Origin: Streptococcus oralis
GTDB lineage: Bacteria; Bacillota; Bacilli; Lactobacillales; Streptococcaceae
Reading direction: 5' to 3'
Length of the DNA stretch: 64,000 nt
Assembly: GCF_016028255.1 (NCBI RefSeq)
Contig: NZ_CP065707.1
Location: forward strand, 124,001 to 188,000
Position numbers and translations under genes: made by a program. Each line of letters opens with the position of its first letter. Position 1 is the stretch's first letter. Of the stretch, positions 5,785 through 59,565 are shown piece by piece. A model generated the notes under the pieces. It was not told the DNA's origin. It worked only from the letters and a program-made list of their open reading frames with translations, and searched no databases.

Positions 5785-6612
5785 TTATTTGTCTTCGTCA
5801 AAGATATTTCCAATCTCAACATCGATGGATTGGTTCTTGACATCAATATTGGTTACTTTCAAGAGTGACTTGTAATCGAACTGCTTTTCACGTTCTTCTT
5901 GGGCATTGTCTGCAAAGACTGCGACGCCAGCTAGTTCAGAGTCGAACTCACGCAAGAGACTAATCATCCCATTGACAGTTCCACCACCTTTTAGGAAGTC
6001 ATCCACAATCAAGACACGACTGCCTGCCTTGAGGCTGCGTTTTGAAAGGAACATTTTCTCAATACGGTCACCGCTTGAACCTGATACATAGTTGACGCTG
6101 ACCGTTGAACCTTCAGTGATTTTCAAGTCACGTCGCACAATGACAAATGGAACGTTGAGGACATTGGCAACTGCATTTGCAAGCGGAACCCCTTTAGTCG
6201 CTACTGTCATAACGGCATCGATTTTTTGGTCCATAAAGCTCTTGGCAATGATACGCCCAATATTTTTCAAAATGGCAGGCGTACTGAGCAAATCAGATAG
6301 GTAGATGTAGCCACCTGGCAAGATACGGTCGCTTTCTGAAAGTTTATCACGCAAGTCTGCGATCATTTCTTTGGCTTCATGACTCGAGATTGATGGTGTA
6401 AAGATAACACCTCCACCTGCTCCAGTCACAGTCTGAATATGACCGATTTCGATTTCCTCAAAGGCACGCTTGATAATCACGATGTCCTCTGAAATCGATG
6501 ATTTAGCAGATTCGTACTTTTCTGCAAAGGTGTTGAGACTGGTTAGTTTGTATGGATTATTAATCAAATAGTTGGAAATGACAACCATCCGATCACTTCT
6601 TCTTAATTTCAT
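5785..6612 (-). CDS. purR: Pur operon transcriptional regulator PurR
   Basis: A 275-residue purine regulator with an N-terminal winged helix (about 1-75) and a phosphoribosyltransferase-like effector domain that senses PRPP through RVLIVDDFLKGGGTVNG. It controls purine biosynthesis and transport genes by binding PurBoxes. A TATAAT at 6651-6656 lies 38 bases upstream, and PurBox-like text occurs in the preceding terminator (6671-6683). A possible target within the window is the purine permease at 29.9 kb. Length and motifs are standard. Confidence 0.95.
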   Translation of the reverse strand: MKLRRSDRMVVISNYLINNPYKLTSLNTFAEKYESAKSSISEDIVIIKRAFEEIEIGHIQTVTGAGGGVIFTPSISSHEAKEMIADLRDKLSESDRILPGGYIYLSDLLSTPAILKNIGRIIAKSFMDQKIDAVMTVATKGVPLANAVANVLNVPFVIVRRDLKITEGSTVSVNYVSGSSGDRIEKMFLSKRSLKAGSRVLIVDDFLKGGGTVNGMISLLREFDSELAGVAVFADNAQEEREKQFDYKSLLKVTNIDVKNQSIDVEIGNIFDEDK

Positions 6613-6667
6613 TTTTATTTACCATTCCATTTAATTTTGATATTTTATCCATTATACCACATTCACA

Positions 6668-6707
6668 TAAAAAAACGAACATTATTGCGTAAAAAATGCT
6701 CGTTTTT
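6668..6707 (-). terminator. Terminator of yhaM
   Basis: A 13-bp stem with one G-U pair (6671-6683 and 6695-6707), followed on the minus strand by seven T residues, directly after the yhaM stop. Confidence 0.85.
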
Positions 6708-6716
6708 CTTAAATTA

Positions 6717-7658
6717 TTAATCTAAATCTGGTTTATAGAAGGAACGATTGTCCATAGCGAAGATTTTATTGGTCATCTCTCCTTTATCCACCAAAGCCAG
6801 AGCTGTTGACATCATCATCATGCTGGCATCTAGATTGTCAATCATATGGATAATCTCTGCCTCCATAATGCGTGGACGGACTGGACTTCCATACTCCAGC
6901 AAGCCATGGTGACTGAGGATGACATGGCGCAGTAGCACCACTTCTTCTCTAGTATCATCGATACCTAGTTCCATGACTGTCTTAGTAATTTCGCTATCGA
7001 TGAGGGCGATATGGCCGATGAGATTGCCTCGCACTGTGTACTCCGTCTGATCTGGTCCCGTCAACTCAATGACTTTGGCCAAGTCATGTAGCATAATTCC
7101 TGCATAGAGGAGGCTCTTGTTGAGCTGAGGATAGATCTCACTAATAGCATCTGCCAAGCGCACCATGGTCGCTGTATGATAGGCCAAACCCGTCTCAAAG
7201 GCATGGTGGTTGGTCTTGGCAGCTGGATAGGAATAGAATTCCTTATCGTACTTGGTGTAAAGACTGCGAACGATACGTTGCCAGACAGGATTTTCAATCT
7301 TGAAAATCATTTGCGACATGTAGTCACGGATTTCCTTGACATCAACTGGTGACTTGACCTTGAAGTCAGCTGGATCATTGGGTTCCCCAGGCTGAGGCAA
7401 GCGGAGAGTAATTTGATTAACTTGTGGAGTGTTGTTATAAACTTCTCTGCGCCCCTGCATGTGGACAACTTTCCCTGCGGTAAAGGTCTCAACGTTATGA
7501 GGTTGGGCATCCCAGAGTTTCCCTTCAATCTCGCCACTATCGTCTTGAAAGGTAAAGGCTAGGTAGTTTTTCCCAGCACGCGTCTGTCTCAGGTCAGCTG
7601 ACTTGATCAGGTAAAAACCTTCAAACAGCTCATCTTTTTTCATGTGACTAATCTTCAT
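6717..7658 (-). CDS. yhaM: 3'-5' exoribonuclease YhaM family (Cbf1)
   Basis: A 313-residue nuclease trimming RNA (and possibly DNA) 3' ends. It has an N-terminal OB fold (about 10-90, with LAFTFQDDSGEIEGKLWD) and an HD hydrolase domain with metal ligands at H161 and H191-D192 (GIMLHDLAKV). Its pneumococcal relative trims many transcripts by a few nucleotides after termination. ATG 7658 follows AGGAAG and overlaps the end of rmuC by 11 bases, so translation is probably coupled. It is the last gene of the rmuC run and is closed by a strong terminator. Confidence 0.92.
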   Translation of the reverse strand: MKISHMKKDELFEGFYLIKSADLRQTRAGKNYLAFTFQDDSGEIEGKLWDAQPHNVETFTAGKVVHMQGRREVYNNTPQVNQITLRLPQPGEPNDPADFKVKSPVDVKEIRDYMSQMIFKIENPVWQRIVRSLYTKYDKEFYSYPAAKTNHHAFETGLAYHTATMVRLADAISEIYPQLNKSLLYAGIMLHDLAKVIELTGPDQTEYTVRGNLIGHIALIDSEITKTVMELGIDDTREEVVLLRHVILSHHGLLEYGSPVRPRIMEAEIIHMIDNLDASMMMMSTALALVDKGEMTNKIFAMDNRSFYKPDLD

Positions 7659-8904
7659 ATTCTTCCTCATCTTCTTGGAAATGGAGTAGATCAAGCGCAG
7701 GCTCACCTTCTGATAACTCAATGTGACGGAGCGTCCGCTCGATAGCTGTAGTACGACGGTTTAATAATTCATCAATATTGCCAGAGGCATGTTGGAGATG
7801 TTTTTGTGCCTTAACCAAAATTCCCCCGAACTTGCCAAACTCGGTCTTAACACTGGCAAGGGTCTTGCTGATATGATCAGCACTCTTTTGGATATTGAGA
7901 GTTTTGAAGCCAACTGATAGAGAGTTAAGCAGGGCTGATAGGGTACTTGGACCAGCAACAATAATCTGCTCCTCCCGTCTCAAATCATCAAAGAAGACCG
8001 GATTGCGAACAATCTCTGAATAAAGGCCTTCTGTCGGAACAAACAAAACACCAAAATTGGTTGTCCGAGGTGGCGCCAGGTACTTGCTCTTGATATCCTT
8101 GGCAAAGCGCTTGACGCTTGCTAGGAGTGACTTGCGACAACGTTCGATTTCGTCCTTATCTCCTGCTTCATAAGCTTCTTCTAAGCGGTAATAATCCGCC
8201 AGTGGAAACTTGGAGTCAATCGGCAAATAGACATATTCCTGGTCACCTTGTCCAGGCAACTTGATAGCGTACTCTACTCGCTCGCTAGAGTTTTCAACCG
8301 TTGCAAATTCTCGTTCGTACTGGGCTGGTGTCATGATGTCTTCGATGATTTGCCCCAGTTGCAATTCTCCTAGAATTCCTCGTGTCTTGGTTCCAGAGAG
8401 AACCTTATTGAGAGCTCCGACATCACGGGCAACTGTCTGCATTTCTCCCAGACCACGATTGACAGACTCCAGTTGCTTGGAAACTGTCTCGAAGGAAGCC
8501 TGCAAGCGTGTCTGCAAGGTCTTTTCCAACTTTTCCTCGACCGTTTGGCGCATTTGTTCTAGACGTTGCTCATTTGATTCCTGCAAGGCTTGGAGACGTT
8601 GGTCGGTCTTGTCTCTGGTTTGGAGGAGATTATCTGTCATTTCTTGACGGACTTGAGTCAAGCCTTGATGCAACTCCATTCGCACTTCCTGCAAACGGTC
8701 ACTGACAGCCACTTCCAAATCTTTTTGATCTAGCTGACTGGCTTGTCTAGCTTGCTCAAAGCGATAATCCAGTTGATCTGAAAGATTGTCTGCCTGATCC
8801 TCCAAACTCTTGCTTAGGTGTTTCTCCTGCTTATCCTGCCTTTGCCAAATGAGAAAGAGTCCAGCTAGATTGGCAATTAATAATAGTAATAATACAGTCT
8901 CCAT
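7648..8904 (-). CDS. rmuC: DNA recombination protein RmuC
   Basis: A 418-residue member of the RmuC family, implicated in limiting recombination at inverted repeats. Residues 1-20 form a membrane anchor (METVLLLLLIANLAG). A long coiled coil follows (about 25-165, rich in Gln, Glu and Leu), and the nuclease-like RmuC domain is marked by GTKTRGILGELQLGQIIEDI, IDSKFPLADYYRL and TEGLYSEIVRN. The true start is ATG 8904 after GGAGGTAGG; the longer open frame to 8946 overlaps thiN and is not used. Two bases separate it from the thiN stop, indicating one operon. Confidence 0.93.
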   Translation of the reverse strand: METVLLLLLIANLAGLFLIWQRQDKQEKHLSKSLEDQADNLSDQLDYRFEQARQASQLDQKDLEVAVSDRLQEVRMELHQGLTQVRQEMTDNLLQTRDKTDQRLQALQESNEQRLEQMRQTVEEKLEKTLQTRLQASFETVSKQLESVNRGLGEMQTVARDVGALNKVLSGTKTRGILGELQLGQIIEDIMTPAQYEREFATVENSSERVEYAIKLPGQGDQEYVYLPIDSKFPLADYYRLEEAYEAGDKDEIERCRKSLLASVKRFAKDIKSKYLAPPRTTNFGVLFVPTEGLYSEIVRNPVFFDDLRREEQIIVAGPSTLSALLNSLSVGFKTLNIQKSADHISKTLASVKTEFGKFGGILVKAQKHLQHASGNIDELLNRRTTAIERTLRHIELSEGEPALDLLHFQEDEEEYED

Positions 8905-52633: not shown

Positions 52634-52727
52634 CAAAAATTAAGCCGCCTAATTGGGCGACTTAGTTTTATAGGGAGATTATTATGAAAAAGTTTTAGGA
52701 GTTTAAGTTAAGTTTCTCTTAACTTAT
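52634..52727 (-). ncRNA. CiaR-dependent small RNA (csRNA/ccn family)
   Basis: An intergenic transcript of about 94 nt is predicted. A CiaR direct repeat and a TATACT -10 at the standard spacing place the 5' end near 52727. The RNA opens with a 9-bp hairpin (52704-52726, UAAGUUAAG/CUUAACUUA, loop AGAAA), then an unpaired stretch (about 52669-52703) with ACTCCTAAAAC and TTTTTCATAATAATCTCCC, and ends in a 9-bp terminator stem (UAAGUCGCC/GGCGGCUUA) and five U. Two stems around an open region complementary to ribosome sites is the csRNA design of streptococci. Such RNAs block translation of targets such as competence and transporter genes. Which member (ccnA-E) it is cannot be told. Confidence 0.8.
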
Positions 52728-52733
52728 GAACTT

Positions 52734-52959: not shown

Positions 52960-53724
52960 TCAAATCATATATTCTACACTATAGCTAGCATCTGATAAGA
53001 TACGAGCCAGAAACTGCTTGGTTCGTTCTTCCTGCGGACGACTAAAGAAGTCATGTGGATTATTCTCCTCTACGATACGGCCTCCGTCCATGAAAATAAC
53101 GTGGTTAGCGACATCCCTAGCAAATCCCATCTCATGCGTGACGACCACCATGGTCACACCTTCTCCCGCCAACTGTTTCAGAACATCCAAAACATCTCCA
53201 ACCAACTCAGGGTCTAGTGCAGATGTTGGTTCATCTAGCAAAATGACCTCGGGCTTGACGGCAATGGCACGCGCAATTCCTATTCGTTGTTGTTGTCCTC
53301 CAGATAGTTGTGAAGGGTAGTAGTCCTTATAAGCAAGTAAACCAACTTTTTCCAAGGCAGATTCTGCACGTTTAAGCGCTTCTTCCTTGGGAACTTTACG
53401 AGCCACGATTAGGCCTTCTAGAATATTTTCCAGAGCAGTTTTGTTTGCAAATAGATTGTAGTGTTGGAAAACAAAGGCTGTTTTTTGGCGAATTTCTAGA
53501 ATGTCTTTCTTGCTTAATTTAGCTAAGTCATAGGTCTTTCCTGCCAAGGTCAACGTGCCACTGTCAGCTTTTTCTAAGTGGTTGAGGCAACGGAGAAAGG
53601 TCGTTTTCCCCGAACCTGATGGTCCTAAAATAACGACGACATCCCCTTGGTTGACCTGAAGATTGACATCCTCCAGAACCTGCCTCTCACCAAATGTTTT
53701 TGCGATATGTTCTACTTGTAACAT
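52960..53724 (-). CDS. Polar amino-acid ABC transporter ATPase (cystine/sulfur-compound type)
   Basis: A 254-residue PAAT-family ATPase: Walker [13 protein letters not shown], signature [14 protein letters not shown], Walker [13 protein letters not shown] and the switch histidine in [14 protein letters not shown]. It resembles TcyC/TcyN/GlnQ ATPases. The product couples to the two permeases directly upstream in the operon (10-base gap). Last gene of the unit that starts at 58295. Substrate is judged from the neighbours: a sulfur compound is favoured. Confidence 0.93.
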
Positions 53725-53733
53725 CCTATCCTC

Positions 53734-54456
53734 CTATACAAAACGTGCGCTAGATGCTTTTGCTCTCTTTTCTTTTTTCACATAGCCTTTCTCCAGTAGG
53801 AAGAAGCCCCACTGAATCAAACCACAGATCAAAATATACTGCAAAAAGATCACAAAATAAGACTCAAAATACTGGTAACCGTAGGACGCTTCCACACGGG
53901 CAATAGCAGTGATATCCTTGATAGTCATAACAAAGACCAGGGAGGTCCCTTTGACGATATTGATCACCAGATTGGCCAAGTTAGGCAAGGCTGAGCGCAA
54001 GGCTTGAGGAAAAACAATCCTTAGATAGGCCTGGGTCGTAGTCAGTCCAATCGCATGCGCCGCCTCTAGTTGTCCCTTGTCCACCGTCAAAATAGCTGAA
54101 CGCAAAATCTCCGACAAACTCCCGACTGTCATCAAACTATAAATGATAAAGGCATAGTAGAGAGGATCAAGTTTGAAAATATCAAAGTCACTTCCTATGC
54201 TTTTGAAAAATTGATTCAGCAGACTTGGAAACAAACTATAAAAGAAGAGAATCAATAAAATCGGAGGAGTCGCTCGGATAAACGCCAGATAGACCAGAGA
54301 AAAACTCCTCACCCCTCGAATCTTGTAAATCTGCCCCAAGGCTAAAAATAGAGCAGGTAAAAAACTTAAGACCATGGCCACAATCATGATGACCAAGGTG
54401 ATTGGCACACCTTTCAAGGTCTCCAGAAAGGTCTTTACAATATAGTCTATGTCCAT
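53734..54456 (-). CDS. Polar amino-acid ABC transporter permease (second)
   Basis: A 240-residue inner-membrane permease with about five helices and the ATPase-contact EAA loop AHAIGLTTTQAYLRIVFPQA (residues about 132-152). Its closest shape is TcyL/TcyM. It starts three bases before the previous permease ends its ribosome site region and is tightly packed with it, so the pair forms a heterodimeric pore. Confidence 0.92.
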   Translation of the reverse strand: MDIDYIVKTFLETLKGVPITLVIMIVAMVLSFLPALFLALGQIYKIRGVRSFSLVYLAFIRATPPILLILFFYSLFPSLLNQFFKSIGSDFDIFKLDPLYYAFIIYSLMTVGSLSEILRSAILTVDKGQLEAAHAIGLTTTQAYLRIVFPQALRSALPNLANLVINIVKGTSLVFVMTIKDITAIARVEASYGYQYFESYFVIFLQYILICGLIQWGFFLLEKGYVKKEKRAKASSARFV

Positions 54457-54459
54457 TTC

Positions 54460-55152
54460 TTACCTCCCTTTTGTTTCCAAAGACTTCTCAAGCAAACGAC
54501 TCAAGCTAGAAATAACCAAAGCAATCCCCCAGTAAAGAAGCGCAACTGCCGTATAGGTTTCCAGTGAGTAGTTCCCTAAATTGCGACTGATCAAGAGATT
54601 GCCTGCCCCCATAACATCAACGAAACCAATCGTATAGGCCAAGGCAGCATCCCGCATGAGATTGAGAATAGCGGTTGTTATGTTGGGAAGAGCAACTTGA
54701 AAAGCTTGGGGAAAAATGATTCTCCAAAAAGTTTGACTTGGAGTCAGACCAATACTAAGCCCTGCCTCTGTCTGCCCCTTTGGAATAGCTTGATAGGCCG
54801 CCTTGAAAACCTCGGCAACGATAGCCGCAAACAAGAGAATCATCGTCAAGAGAACAAAAATAGTTTTAGACCAGTTGTTGATATCCAAACCAAGCCACCA
54901 TTTCAGAAATTCTGGCAAGCCATAAAAGACTAGAAAAAGCAAGACAATCGGCGGTGTACAACGAAGGGTAAAGATATAGCCTTTGGAAATCGCTGCAAAA
55001 CTCTTGTCTTCTCCTACTTGTGCCCAGGCCAAGAGACCTCCAAAAAGGGAACCAAGAAGAGTGGTAAAAAAGAGAATGGACAAGGTCATAGGAAGTGCCT
55101 GCCATAAGGTCGGTAAAAACTGAAAGACCTTGGAAAAATCATAAGAAACCAT
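54460..55152 (-). CDS. Polar amino-acid ABC transporter permease (first)
   Basis: A 230-residue permease with the EAA loop EAGLSIGLTPSQTFWRIIFPQ and about five helices. Paired with the following permease. It lies 32 bases after the binding-protein gene. Confidence 0.92.
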   Translation of the reverse strand: MVSYDFSKVFQFLPTLWQALPMTLSILFFTTLLGSLFGGLLAWAQVGEDKSFAAISKGYIFTLRCTPPIVLLFLVFYGLPEFLKWWLGLDINNWSKTIFVLLTMILLFAAIVAEVFKAAYQAIPKGQTEAGLSIGLTPSQTFWRIIFPQAFQVALPNITTAILNLMRDAALAYTIGFVDVMGAGNLLISRNLGNYSLETYTAVALLYWGIALVISSLSRLLEKSLETKGR

Positions 55153-55184
55153 GCAAAACCCTTTCTAGTCTTGGAATTTCTGGT

Positions 55185-56063
55185 CTAGTCTTTGTCTACG
55201 TAACTAAAGACATCTTCTTTAAAGTATTGCTGAGATAGCTTAGCAAGCGTGCCATCTTCTTTCAACTCTTTGATTGCTTTTTCGTATTCTTTAGCGAATT
55301 TCTCACCCTTTTCATCACGGTGAATCAAGGGATAAGTTGGAATACCCTTGTATGGGAACCAGCTGAGTTTATCCGCATATTGGTGGTAAGGGCCATCTTC
55401 TGCGGTAACTGCTTTTTCAAAGGACAGTTTGATATCAAAGAAGGCGTCATAACGTCCTTCTAAGACCCAGGCATAGGCATCTGCCACCTTAAAGGATTCT
55501 GCTGCTGTCAGCTCAATCGGTGCATCCTGATGTTTTTCATTGTAGCTGGTGATAACATTCCATTGAGCATTCTGTGGAGAGATAGGAACCAATTTCCCTT
55601 TATTCTTAGCAAAGTCATCAATGGTTTTGTATTTCTGTTCATCTTCTTTTCTGACAGTAAATCCGATGATGCTCGCTCCGACTGGTTCCGATGGAATGAC
55701 AAACTTTTTAGCTCGTTCGTCTGTGTACCAAGCTCCCTTGGTTCCGATGTCATACTTGCCTGATTCCAGACCAATCAAGAGGTCGTCATCACTGGTACCC
55801 GTATATTCAAATTTATAGTTTGCCAACTTCTCATCAACAGCCTTCAAAACAGCTACTTCATAACCATCTGATTCCCCTTTTTCATTGACAAAGTCATAAG
55901 GTATGTAGTTTTGTGTATGGGCAACCTTCAAGGTTATGACTTCAGCAGATGAAGCCGTTTCTCCCTCCTTGGCCGGAGCGCCAGCTAAACTTCTCCCGAT
56001 AATCGTTGCCCCAATTACTGCAACAACTGCTACACCACCGATAATCCATGCTTTTTTACTCAT
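55185..56063 (-). CDS. Polar amino-acid ABC transporter substrate-binding protein, uncleaved-anchor type
   Basis: A 292-residue extracytoplasmic solute-binding protein (family 3, SBP_bac_3). The N-terminal hydrophobic segment (residues about 6-28, WIIGGVAVVAVIGATIIGR) has no lipobox cysteine, unusual for a Gram-positive binding protein; it would be a membrane anchor or a Sec signal. The binding fold shows VAHTQNYIPYDFVNEKGESDGYEV and GKYDIGTKGAWYTDERAKK in its parts. TcyJ/TcyK-like proteins bind cystine and related sulfur compounds; specificity here is inferred. It follows the first methyltransferase by 11 bases. Confidence 0.88.
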   Translation of the reverse strand: MSKKAWIIGGVAVVAVIGATIIGRSLAGAPAKEGETASSAEVITLKVAHTQNYIPYDFVNEKGESDGYEVAVLKAVDEKLANYKFEYTGTSDDDLLIGLESGKYDIGTKGAWYTDERAKKFVIPSEPVGASIIGFTVRKEDEQKYKTIDDFAKNKGKLVPISPQNAQWNVITSYNEKHQDAPIELTAAESFKVADAYAWVLEGRYDAFFDIKLSFEKAVTAEDGPYHQYADKLSWFPYKGIPTYPLIHRDEKGEKFAKEYEKAIKELKEDGTLAKLSQQYFKEDVFSYVDKD

Positions 56064-56074
56064 CTTTTTCTCCT

Positions 56075-57073
56075 TTAGTTTTCAAGCGCTTCTCTCACCC
56101 ACTGGATACGTTCAACTGCGATATCACTTGGAATAGTACAATCTGCCCCAAGTACCAAGCCCTGTTCCCCAGCTTCTGCAACTAGTTTCTTTGCCTTAGC
56201 CTGAATGGCATCCTTGCTACCAGTATACAGTAAGCCTGTCTTGCCATTTTCGAATCCTCCAAGAACCGTACGTCCCTTGAAAATCTCACGACCTTCCTTG
56301 AGAGTGATTCCCTCTGGTCCTACAGCCCAGTTAAAGACTTGGGCTGGATAGTCTGCAAAAAGGTGAATATCATTTCGCGCTCCCTCGTAGCCACAGATAT
56401 GAAGAACTGTGACGCCACCAACAGCACTAGCTGCTTCCAGAACCGTTATCTCGCTAGGGGCAATGACGGCTTGATAATCTGCTGCCAACACTCGTTGATC
56501 TTGGATACTCTGCACGCTGAGGTAGATTCCGTCAGCACCAGCCTCTTCGATGACAGCTCGGCTGAGACTCGCAATATCTTCTGCAATCACATCCAACACC
56601 TTCTTCAGAGCTTCAGGATCTTCCACCAGAAAATCTGCAATGAGGTCATCGCCACCAGACACTTCCCCTAGTAGCCACTTGAGATAGGTCACAGGAGCAA
56701 AAATATTGTAAATCGCAACGATATCTTCTGTAAACTCTTGCTTAATTTTCTTAACCAAGTCCACCTGCTCTTTTATCCAAGCGTGCTCTGGTCCGAGTGG
56801 TTGAATGGTCGCCAATTCTTGAAGTGATTTTCCTTGAGCAATCGCTGGATTTGGATAAGCAAAGTAGCCATCACTCATGAGTTTGATAAAGTCTGGCTGA
56901 ACTTCTCGTATAAAGCGCTTATGCCCCTCGATATTCTTCTTGATAATGGCTGGATTTGAGAAACCGTGTAGCCATTCGTCTTCGGATGTGAAATGGTGCC
57001 AAAAGCCAACTGGCACACGATCAACCTTCTCACCTTTAAATGCTTTTAAAACCCATTCTCTTTTTTCTGACAT
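56075..57073 (-). CDS. UroD-superfamily protein, predicted zinc thiol methyltransferase (MtaA/CmuA-like), copy 1
   Basis: 332 residues in the uroporphyrinogen decarboxylase superfamily. It carries H225-x-C227 (TVLHICGYEG) and C312 (LGADCTIP), the zinc-binding triad of methylcobamide:thiol methyltransferases. At the place where true UroD has its arginine-rich RQAGRY motif it reads PVGFWHHF, so it is not a heme enzyme, and streptococci lack that pathway. Predicted to move a methyl or alkyl group to or from a thiol. The start overlaps nothing but sits three bases after the small gene; AATGGAGAA is the ribosome site. Co-transcribed with an amino-acid ABC transporter. Confidence 0.75.
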   Translation of the reverse strand: MSEKREWVLKAFKGEKVDRVPVGFWHHFTSEDEWLHGFSNPAIIKKNIEGHKRFIREVQPDFIKLMSDGYFAYPNPAIAQGKSLQELATIQPLGPEHAWIKEQVDLVKKIKQEFTEDIVAIYNIFAPVTYLKWLLGEVSGGDDLIADFLVEDPEALKKVLDVIAEDIASLSRAVIEEAGADGIYLSVQSIQDQRVLAADYQAVIAPSEITVLEAASAVGGVTVLHICGYEGARNDIHLFADYPAQVFNWAVGPEGITLKEGREIFKGRTVLGGFENGKTGLLYTGSKDAIQAKAKKLVAEAGEQGLVLGADCTIPSDIAVERIQWVREALEN

Positions 57074-57075
57074 TC

Positions 57076-57279
57076 TTATTCTCCATTTCTTACTTTTTCA
57101 ACTAATAAACTGCTTGCGATATCATTCGAGCGTAGAAAGGGGAGACTGGACTTGGAAAAATCCTGAACTCCACGACATCTTTCTCCATTTTTACAATGCT
57201 CATTTTTTACAACGCTTATGGCAACCAAGGCCAGCAAACTGATAACTGCAATGAAGATGCCCCATCTTTTACTTTTCAT
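57076..57279 (-). CDS. Small membrane-anchored protein with a Cys-X5-Cys pair, unknown
   Basis: 67 residues: a basic start MKSKR, one hydrophobic helix (about 7-24, WGIFIAVISLLALVAISVV), then a short outside domain with HCKNGERC (C29 and C35). It has an excellent AAAGGAGGAG ribosome site before ATG 57279 and is packed between the two methyltransferase genes (11 and 2 bases away), so it is a real gene. The cysteines could form a disulfide or bind a metal. I know no homologue. Confidence 0.7.
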   Translation of the reverse strand: MKSKRWGIFIAVISLLALVAISVVKNEHCKNGERCRGVQDFSKSSLPFLRSNDIASSLLVEKVRNGE

Positions 57280-57290
57280 AGCTCCTCCTT

Positions 57291-58295
57291 TTAGAGAACA
57301 GCTGCCTGCCGAATCCAGTCTAACCTCTCTAAGTCAAAGTCATCTGGAACAGTACAGTCAGCTCCCAGAAGAATGCCTTTACTACCCGCTTCAGCCAGCA
57401 ACCGCCTTGTTTCATTTTGCAATTCTGCCTTGGAACCTTGATAAAGCAAGCTTTTCTTGCCATTTTCAAATCCACCTAAAACGGCCTTACCTGGAAACAA
57501 CTCTTGACCCTGTGTCAAACTAACACCCTCATGGTGGGTCGCCCAGTTGACCACTTGAGCTGGATAGTCCTTAAATATCGTCACATCATTGCTCGCACCT
57601 TCAAAACCACAAATATGGAGGATATTGATCCCACCAACCTGATTGGCTGCTTCCAAAATCACTATATTGCTCGGTTCGATATAGGTTTGGTAGAGCGCTG
57701 GTGTGATGCGCTCATCTTGAATTTCCTGGGTGCTGAGGTAAATCCCGTCGACACCGCCTTGCTGGATGATTTTCTGAGTTAGGATAGCAATATCTCCTGC
57801 AATCACATCTAGAATCGCTCTGAATTGCTCAGGATTTTCTAGCAATAGATCAGCCACTTCCTTATCTCCTCGAGAAGTTTCTGTACGGAACCAGCGCTTG
57901 AGGTAGGAGATAGGCGAAAAGATATTGTAGAAAGAAGCAATCTCTTCGGTAAAGGTCTCTCGAATTGCTTGTACCACTTCCACCTGTTGCTGAATCCATG
58001 GGTGATCCTCACTAATCGACTCAATAGAAGTCAGCTCCTGAATGCTTGCAATCTTAGGATTATAGACATTACTTGGATAAAGGAAAAAACCGTCACTCAT
58101 AATTTTGACAAAATCAGGACGAATCCTTTCCACATAGTTGCGATGTCCATCAACACTTTTTTGAAAGATACGTGGATTATTTAATCCTTGCCCCTTTTCT
58201 TCGAGTGTTACAAAATGAAACCAAAATCCCACAGGAACTCTTTCCACTTCATCGCCTCGAATCGCTCTAAAGACTAAATCTCTTTTACTTGCCAT
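57291..58295 (-). CDS. UroD-superfamily protein, predicted zinc thiol methyltransferase, copy 2
   Basis: A 334-residue paralogue of the protein at 56075-57073: same opening (RVPVGFWFHFVT), H227-x-C229 (ILHICGFEG) and C313 (LGADCTVP). The shared NFxxGK text (LGGFENGKKSLLYQGSK) and colinear lengths show a gene duplication, with clear divergence between copies, which suggests different substrates or a two-step transfer. ATG 58295 follows GGAGAGAGG. It is the first gene of the ABC operon. Confidence 0.75.
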   Translation of the reverse strand: MASKRDLVFRAIRGDEVERVPVGFWFHFVTLEEKGQGLNNPRIFQKSVDGHRNYVERIRPDFVKIMSDGFFLYPSNVYNPKIASIQELTSIESISEDHPWIQQQVEVVQAIRETFTEEIASFYNIFSPISYLKRWFRTETSRGDKEVADLLLENPEQFRAILDVIAGDIAILTQKIIQQGGVDGIYLSTQEIQDERITPALYQTYIEPSNIVILEAANQVGGINILHICGFEGASNDVTIFKDYPAQVVNWATHHEGVSLTQGQELFPGKAVLGGFENGKKSLLYQGSKAELQNETRRLLAEAGSKGILLGADCTVPDDFDLERLDWIRQAAVL

Positions 58296-58349: not shown

Positions 58350-58381
58350 CCCAATATATATTGACTATAGACTTGATTGGG
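58350..58381. promoter_or_regulatory. Palindromic ends CCCAAT...ATTGGG upstream of the methyltransferase operon
   Basis: CCCAAT (58350-58355) and ATTGGG (58376-58381) form a 32-base dyad about 55 bases before the first ATG, in the expected promoter zone. It could be an operator for a sulfur-responsive regulator; no -10/-35 pair is clear. Confidence 0.35.
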
Positions 58382-58399
58382 AATTTTTATATCTATAAA

Positions 58400-58513: not shown

Positions 58514-59565
58514 TTATAATCCCTCTTTCATGGCAAAGTAAGCACGTATTTTGGGCGCCACTTGTGTGCCAAAGAGTTCAATAGCTCTCAAAACTTGATC
58601 ATGAGGCATGGAACCAAGCGGTAGATGGAGCATGAAACGGTCCAAGTCTAAATCCTCAATCATGCGAATCAATTTTTCTGCCACCTGGTCTGGATTTCCC
58701 ACAAACATGGCACCATTTGGACCAACTTGCTCCAAATATTGCTCATAGGTCAACTCCTGCCAGTGTGGACGTTCCTTGGAAATCGCATCCACCACTTGCT
58801 TGGTCGGATGGAAATAATCTTTTACAGCCTGTTCGCCATCCTCAGCAATCCAGCCCCAAGAATGAGCGCCCACTTTCAGGCCTTTATCCGCATAACCGGC
58901 TTCCCTACCAATCTCACGATAAGCTTGAATCAATTTCTTGAAGTAGCGCGGATTACCACCGATAATGGCATAGACAATCGGCAGCCCCGCCTGAGCAATC
59001 TTCACTGTTGACTCTACATGACCACCTGTCGCCACCCACAATGGCAATTTCCTCTGAACCGGACGGGGATAAACTTCTTTTCCAGCAATGCTTTGGGTCA
59101 ATTGCCCCTGCCAGTTCACTTGGGTGCTTTCATTTGCCAACTGAAGCAGATCTAACTTTTCATCAAAGAGAGCTTCGTAATCTTTCAAGTTATAGCCAAA
59201 CAGGGGGAAGGATTCGGTGAATGAACCACGCCCAGCCATAATCTCTGCACGGCCATTTGACAAGGCGTCGATGGTGGCATATTGTTGGAACAAGCGAATC
59301 GGATCCATACTCGAGAGAATGCTGACTGCACTGGTCAAACGAATTTTCTTGGTATTAACCGCACCAGCTGCAAGAACAAGCTCTGGCGCCGATACCGCAA
59401 AGTCCTCCCGATGATGCTCCCCAATCCCATACACATCCAAACCAACCTTGTCAGCCAGTTCAATCTCCGCCACCAACTGACGAATGCGTTCGCATGACTG
59501 TAAGTCTGTCCAGTCCCTTCCAAAGCTGTTGTTTCACCAAATGTTGAAATTCCTAATTCTACCAT
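58514..59565 (-). pseudogene. Luciferase-like flavin monooxygenase (LLM_2I7G-type), frameshifted
   Basis: The N-terminus is read from ATG 59565 after GAGGAA (MVELGISTFGETTALEGTGQ then TYSHA), and the rest continues in another frame as LVAEIELADKVGLDVYGIGEHHREDF. The switch is at about 59491-59493 in CATGCGAACGC: restoring one base gives Ala-Glu-Arg-Ile-Arg and a single 350-residue frame. Typical motifs remain (EHHREDFAVSAPE, GRAEIMAGRGSFTESFPLFG, YPRPVQRKLPLWVATGG). These are probable FMN-dependent oxidoreductases; some relatives open C-S bonds. Either a disrupted gene or a sequencing error. It has its own promoter. Confidence 0.85.

Follow-up and report, generated by a model that had tools for sequence, protein, structure and literature searches.

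The ytmI operon of Bacillus subtilis has a role in the salvage of S-alkylcysteines. In B. subtilis and Listeria it combines Tcy(J)KLMN importer genes with genes for sulfur compounds, including a monooxygenase (ytmO) and a flavin mononucleotide reductase; its activator gene is divergent, and the available part of the source mentions no UroD-fold enzyme (PMC9239247). Enzymes with the UroD fold and an H-x-C...C motif are found among the coenzyme M methyltransferases MtaA and MtbA and in type 1 mlp gene clusters, which use corrinoid proteins and an activase. A related barrel is found in MetE, a cobalamin-independent zinc thiol methyltransferase (PMC539065, available in part). Here we describe an operon in a window of 64,000 nucleotides of Streptococcus oralis (contig NZ_CP065707.1, positions 124,001 to 188,000), in which a binding protein of the same kind as in the ytmI operon stands beside two UroD-superfamily enzymes, MT1 and MT2, with the H-x-C and distant cysteine at aligned places. 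We give about an even chance to the proposal that this operon serves the salvage of sulfur amino acids: a zinc-dependent thiol methyltransferase or alkyltransferase that needs no corrinoid would process an S-substituted amino acid.

The UroD-superfamily enzymes

The operon comprises seven head-to-tail genes on the minus strand, running from 58295 to 52960 with intergenic gaps of 11, 2, 11, 32, 3 and 9 bases (Table 1). A preliminary description of the locus had its coordinates, direction and spacing (2-32 bases) right, but stated six genes while listing seven; seven is correct. MT1 and MT2 are 51% identical, and their only Pfam match is URO-D (PF01208; 76.4 and 60.7 bits against a gathering score of 23.9); the MetE models TIGR01371 and PF01717 were not among their matches at E 0.001. 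Among solved zinc enzymes, the relative most similar in sequence is the methyltransferase MtaA (4ay7), whose LHICG and PGC stretches, which we take to hold its zinc ligands, align with H225, C227 and C312 of MT1. These residues had been named beforehand, as had H227 and C229 of MT2, but MT2 has its distant cysteine at C314 rather than C313. In an alignment of 57 rows, made of the two window enzymes and the proteins of more than 300 residues from the fetched loci (shorter fragments excluded), H225 and C312 are present in all 57 and C227 in 52; the other five rows have H-x-H, and the full triad is intact in each of the 52 H-x-C rows. The RQAGRY stretch of UroD is absent from both enzymes, as first reported, and the N-terminus reads VPVGFWHHF at that place.

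Structure prediction for MT1 gave a barrel (predicted local distance difference test, pLDDT, 87.5; predicted template modelling score 0.90). MT2 branches outside MT1 and the non-streptococcal rows, with a caution for long branches, so the MT1/MT2 duplication looks old. Judged by sequence, both enzymes look like zinc-dependent thiol methyltransferases and would bind zinc.

No B12-binding domain (PF02310) scored above cut-off in the 39 streptococci tested, out of 80 with a matching enzyme, and three weak matches lay below it; we therefore consider it very likely that the enzymes of streptococci need no corrinoid, and a corrinoid partner in streptococci was rejected. The hemE model TIGR01464 has no match in the S. 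oralis genome, and this together with the missing RQAGRY led us to reject a HemE role. The initial view was that the classic heme and cobalamin roles do not fit, since streptococci make neither compound. Cobalamin synthesis occurs in S. sanguinis. Selenium salvage in this genome was likewise rejected, selD being unmatched.

Linkage and exchange of enzyme and importer

MT1 has matches at E 0.001 in 80 of 197 Streptococcus genomes, of which G160 gives a partial match and G172 only the H-x-H type. Two matches occur in 48 of the 80, the second being a fragment in G137 and of H-x-H type in G043. Further afield, a class-level survey found matches at E 1e-20 in 15 of 398 genomes, in three genera, and a phylum-level survey at E 1e-30 in nine of 398, in seven genera, three of them with H-x-H.

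We fetched 41 H-x-C loci, 33 streptococcal (picked from the 80 genomes for spread, not at random) and eight others, and determined gene order by tblastn. In all 41 loci the enzyme is grouped with the binding protein, both permeases and the ATPase, 39 of them in that order and two with the order changed. Some genes are broken: the binding protein of L088 is in two pieces, MT2 of L082 is a fragment and permease 1 of L099 is not one open reading frame. The set spans Streptococcus, Paenibacillus, Clostridiaceae and Sporomusaceae, with Paenibacillus wynnii and metagenome-assembled genomes of Clostridiaceae and Massilibacillus as named carriers in a scan that covered close relatives of the Paenibacillus enzyme. 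The pairing of importer and enzyme is old. In L078, the N-terminal part of MT2 adjoins the C-terminal part of the ATPase, as if the middle of the operon had been deleted.

The importer carries the SBP_bac_3, BPD_transp_1 and ABC_tran domains of a polar amino-acid ATP-binding cassette (ABC) importer, and the solved structures nearest to its binding protein are YtmK/TcyK and GshT. Inspection by eye shows no cysteine resembling that of a lipobox in the N-terminal region of the window binding protein, in contrast to its homologue in L065. Locus L081 carries two tandem binding-protein genes in one operon (6546-8335), 92% and 70% identical to that of the window.

An exchange between two streptococcal loci, L089 and L076, bears on the relation of the two halves. 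Identity between their flanks is 97.2% over 6.5 kb on one side and 97.1% over 7.7 kb on the other, while between these flanks 3.36 kb of L089 (6466-9827) does not align with 3.30 kb of L076 (9047-12348). The L089 segment holds an enzyme, a binding protein and two permeases; in L076 the enzyme is of H-x-H type and is accompanied by a different binding protein and two permeases. Outside the segment the two loci share the LysR gene (99% identical), the promoter region and the ATPase. Binding protein, permeases and enzyme have been swapped as one block. This joint swap is a single event, but it indicates that enzyme and import specificity belong together. At E 1e-30 the H-x-H enzyme is found in only two of the 197 Streptococcus genomes, in G172 through this exchange and in G043 within a second cluster that has no ATPase match. 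Elsewhere in the class, H-x-H homologues in L119, L120 and L121, all from one family, lie near methionine-gamma-lyase-like genes and three different transporter classes. The H-x-H homologue in L074 stands beside opine-dehydrogenase-like and C45-peptidase-like genes and that of L072 beside a ThiW-like gene (both named by eye).

The same operon very likely occurs in Streptococcus mutans as SMU.932-936, which we take to be tcyDEFGH. There, as here, the amino-acid ABC transporter genes follow an enzyme and a binding protein, but the locus numbering implies five genes and therefore one enzyme, against seven genes in the window. The assignment is made because the C-termini reported for SMU.932 (IAWVKEAVTL) and SMU.933 (GEDVFNYVTK) are the exact ends of the L088 enzyme and of the L090, L091 and L095 binding proteins, respectively; the available part of that paper treats the operon as a transporter and calls SMU.932 hypothetical (PMC10782952).

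Proposed function and its alternatives

In the proposed system, a TcyK/GshT-type ABC importer would take up an S-substituted amino acid, and the His-Cys-Cys zinc site of the UroD-fold enzymes would bind the thiolate of homocysteine (most likely) or else of cysteine. Between this thiol and the imported compound the enzymes could then move a methyl or alkyl group without a corrinoid. Because no corrinoid takes part, an activated donor group, such as a sulfonium, is to be expected; sulfonium compounds such as S-methylmethionine would be the first candidates. The ligand, thiol acceptor, direction and reaction, like zinc binding itself, are what we infer from the genes present, the aligned triad, the conserved linkage, the joint exchange, the lack of a B12-binding domain above cut-off in the streptococci tested, the sulfur-compound-binding structural neighbours of the binding protein and the C-S lyase genes that adjoin the operon in two non-streptococcal genera. 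Uptake of a sulfur compound with transfer to a thiol had already been suggested in the preliminary description, and we keep it as the best reading.

A number of observations weigh against it. The MtaA/CmuA model TIGR01463 scores only 36.1 and 35.3 bits on the two enzymes, far below its curated cut-off of 235.4. For the importer, described beforehand as TcyJKLMN-like, the curated cystine-binding model gives the binding protein 63.5 against a cut-off of 312, the TcyN model gives the ATPase 314.9 bits against 406, and the structure model of the binding protein is middling (pLDDT 74.3). The block exchange is a single case. C-S lyase genes were found in only two of the 41 H-x-C loci and, at E 1e-15, in none of the 33 streptococcal loci (up to 20 kb each). 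Without Co(I), plain thioethers donate methyl groups poorly. Of the 80 matching Streptococcus genomes, 78 have MetE (against 84 of 117 others), S. oralis included, and PF02574 homocysteine S-methyltransferases (MmuM), which are of a different family and might perform the same overall reaction, are commoner rather than rarer in matching genomes (44 of 80 against 32 of 117), both counts being confounded by phylogeny. Since MetE co-occurs with the enzyme, its replacement by the enzyme was rejected. The S. oralis genome has no PF02574 match at E 1e-20; the gene occurs in 14 of 48 two-match and 30 of 32 one-match genomes, the matches including long fused proteins, and for the same phylogenetic reason this co-occurrence was set aside as evidence.

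Published work on S. mutans also points away from salvage, SMU_933-936 being called a potential L-cystine ABC transporter (PMC5361627) and tcyDEFGH being linked to the transport of cysteine (PMC5131005), in the parts of both papers available. On such a view the importer would simply carry cystine, and the enzyme, whose fold is related to that of MetE, would be a core methionine synthase or another homocysteine or cysteine methyltransferase that draws on an internal donor, for instance methyl-folate, and stands there only through co-regulation with sulfur supply. We consider this fairly unlikely, given that the block exchange took in the enzyme along with binding protein and permeases but left LysR gene, promoter and ATPase in place, that the importer pairing recurs in a distant enzyme subgroup, and that nearly all matching genomes already have MetE. 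EaCoMT systems pair a zinc alkyltransferase with short-chain dehydrogenases, and short-chain dehydrogenase genes near the operon in four of the eight non-streptococcal H-x-C loci (L068, L069, L070 and L075, with L069 and L070 from one genus) hint that the enzyme might add or remove a thiol at an electrophilic carbon compound, by EaCoMT-like addition or adduct cleavage, the import then being a cysteine adduct and not a methyl donor. That no such gene was found at E 1e-15 in the 33 streptococcal loci or in L065, L066, L067 and L071, and that the nearest solved zinc relative transfers methyl groups, makes this quite unlikely.

Membership of the same superfamily and the His-Cys-Cys site of the mlp enzymes (PMC10418091, available in part) would suit an S- or Se-methyltransferase dependent on a corrinoid, like those of type 1 mlp gene clusters, as would the PF02310 domains above cut-off in five of six non-streptococcal carriers tested and selD in two of ten carriers tested. 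Above cut-off the domain is, however, missing from the 39 streptococci tested and from G322; its nearest copy on the contig of the enzyme is about 24 kb away in G768 and more than 100 kb in G902, and in the rest it lies on other contigs. With selD unmatched in eight of the ten carriers, S. oralis among them, we regard this explanation as very improbable. Least probable of all is a remnant heme enzyme or an inactive UroD-fold protein without catalytic role: URO-D is indeed the only Pfam match, but the hemE model finds nothing in this genome, RQAGRY is absent and the triad is intact across families of the phylum.

The salvage proposal can be extended, tentatively and with less confidence than we place in the proposal itself, to a corrinoid-free UroD branch near MtaA that, together with its own importer, makes up a swappable cassette for the import and de-alkylation or trans-methylation of specific S-substituted amino acids; H-x-C and H-x-H metal sites would mark two substrate classes, and the 'cystine' operon of S. 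mutans would be one such cassette. If so, oral streptococci and other Firmicutes would be able to use methylated or alkylated sulfur amino acids by a route so far overlooked, an MtaA-like enzyme would function without B12, and SMU.932-936, which recurs in S. mutans expression studies, would go from a bare transporter to a testable pathway. The claim that a cobalamin-free use of this fold is undescribed proved too broad, because MetE is already a corrinoid-free use of the wider fold. What appears new, so far as searched, is the occurrence of this branch in genomes where no B12-binding protein is detected, the fixed importer pairing and the joint block exchange. Literature searches, which had little reach into subscription papers, returned no described system of this kind, and there is none in the available text of PMC10418091; nor does the available part of PMC7857596, on three methionine synthase families, mention the UroD-type family of the operon.

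Regulation and genomic surroundings

Table 1 Features of the operon and its upstream region
Feature	Position	Strand	Description
Conserved upstream block	58351-58393	-	ATAAAnA..AATCA..GATAG..ATATATT; two-enzyme genomes
MT2	57291-58295	-	UroD-superfamily protein, H227/C229/C314, old paralogue of MT1
Small 67-residue protein	57076-57279	-	N-terminal hydrophobic stretch
MT1	56075-57073	-	UroD-superfamily protein, H225/C227/C312, predicted barrel
Substrate-binding protein	55185-56063	-	SBP_bac_3; family 3; nearest solved structures YtmK/TcyK and GshT
Permease 1	54460-55152	-	BPD_transp_1
Permease 2	53734-54456	-	BPD_transp_1
ATPase	52960-53724	-	best NCBIfam model TcyN

An alignment of ten upstream regions, that of the window included, contains blocks conserved among loci of the two-enzyme form and among most of those with a LysR gene, and we suspect that the block of the window is a promoter or operator. 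The published CmbR consensus has no match in the window with up to three mismatches. A LysR gene lies near the enzyme in 13 of 23 single-enzyme streptococcal loci, mostly divergent and 64-100% identical to that of L089, and has two relatives among the LysR genes of the S. oralis genome (38% and 33%). For S. mutans, HomR, a regulator of the LysR family, is reported to activate metBC and tcyDEFGH (PMC5131005, available in part).

The small protein has no Pfam match. Its cysteine pair, mentioned in the preliminary description, is there but is specific to a lineage, being present in five loci (L079, L080, L081, L106 and L107) and absent from five others (L082, L084, L105, L108 and L109). Upstream of the operon lie a gene matching an NCBIfam LLM-family model and glmS (named by eye). 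The LLM gene (58514-59565, minus strand; Atu2307/SP_0267 monooxygenase family) has a frameshift near 59477, real or a sequencing error, relative to an intact 350-residue copy in L081. We dropped it as an operon partner because the namesake of its family, SP_0267, presumably adjoins glmS in S. pneumoniae. Downstream, genes reading as uppS, cdsA and eep follow (named by eye from their translations). Directly downstream of the operon lies a Cia-dependent small RNA of the csRNA1 family (52638-52728, minus strand), the sole RNA match at gathering threshold between 45000 and 64000.
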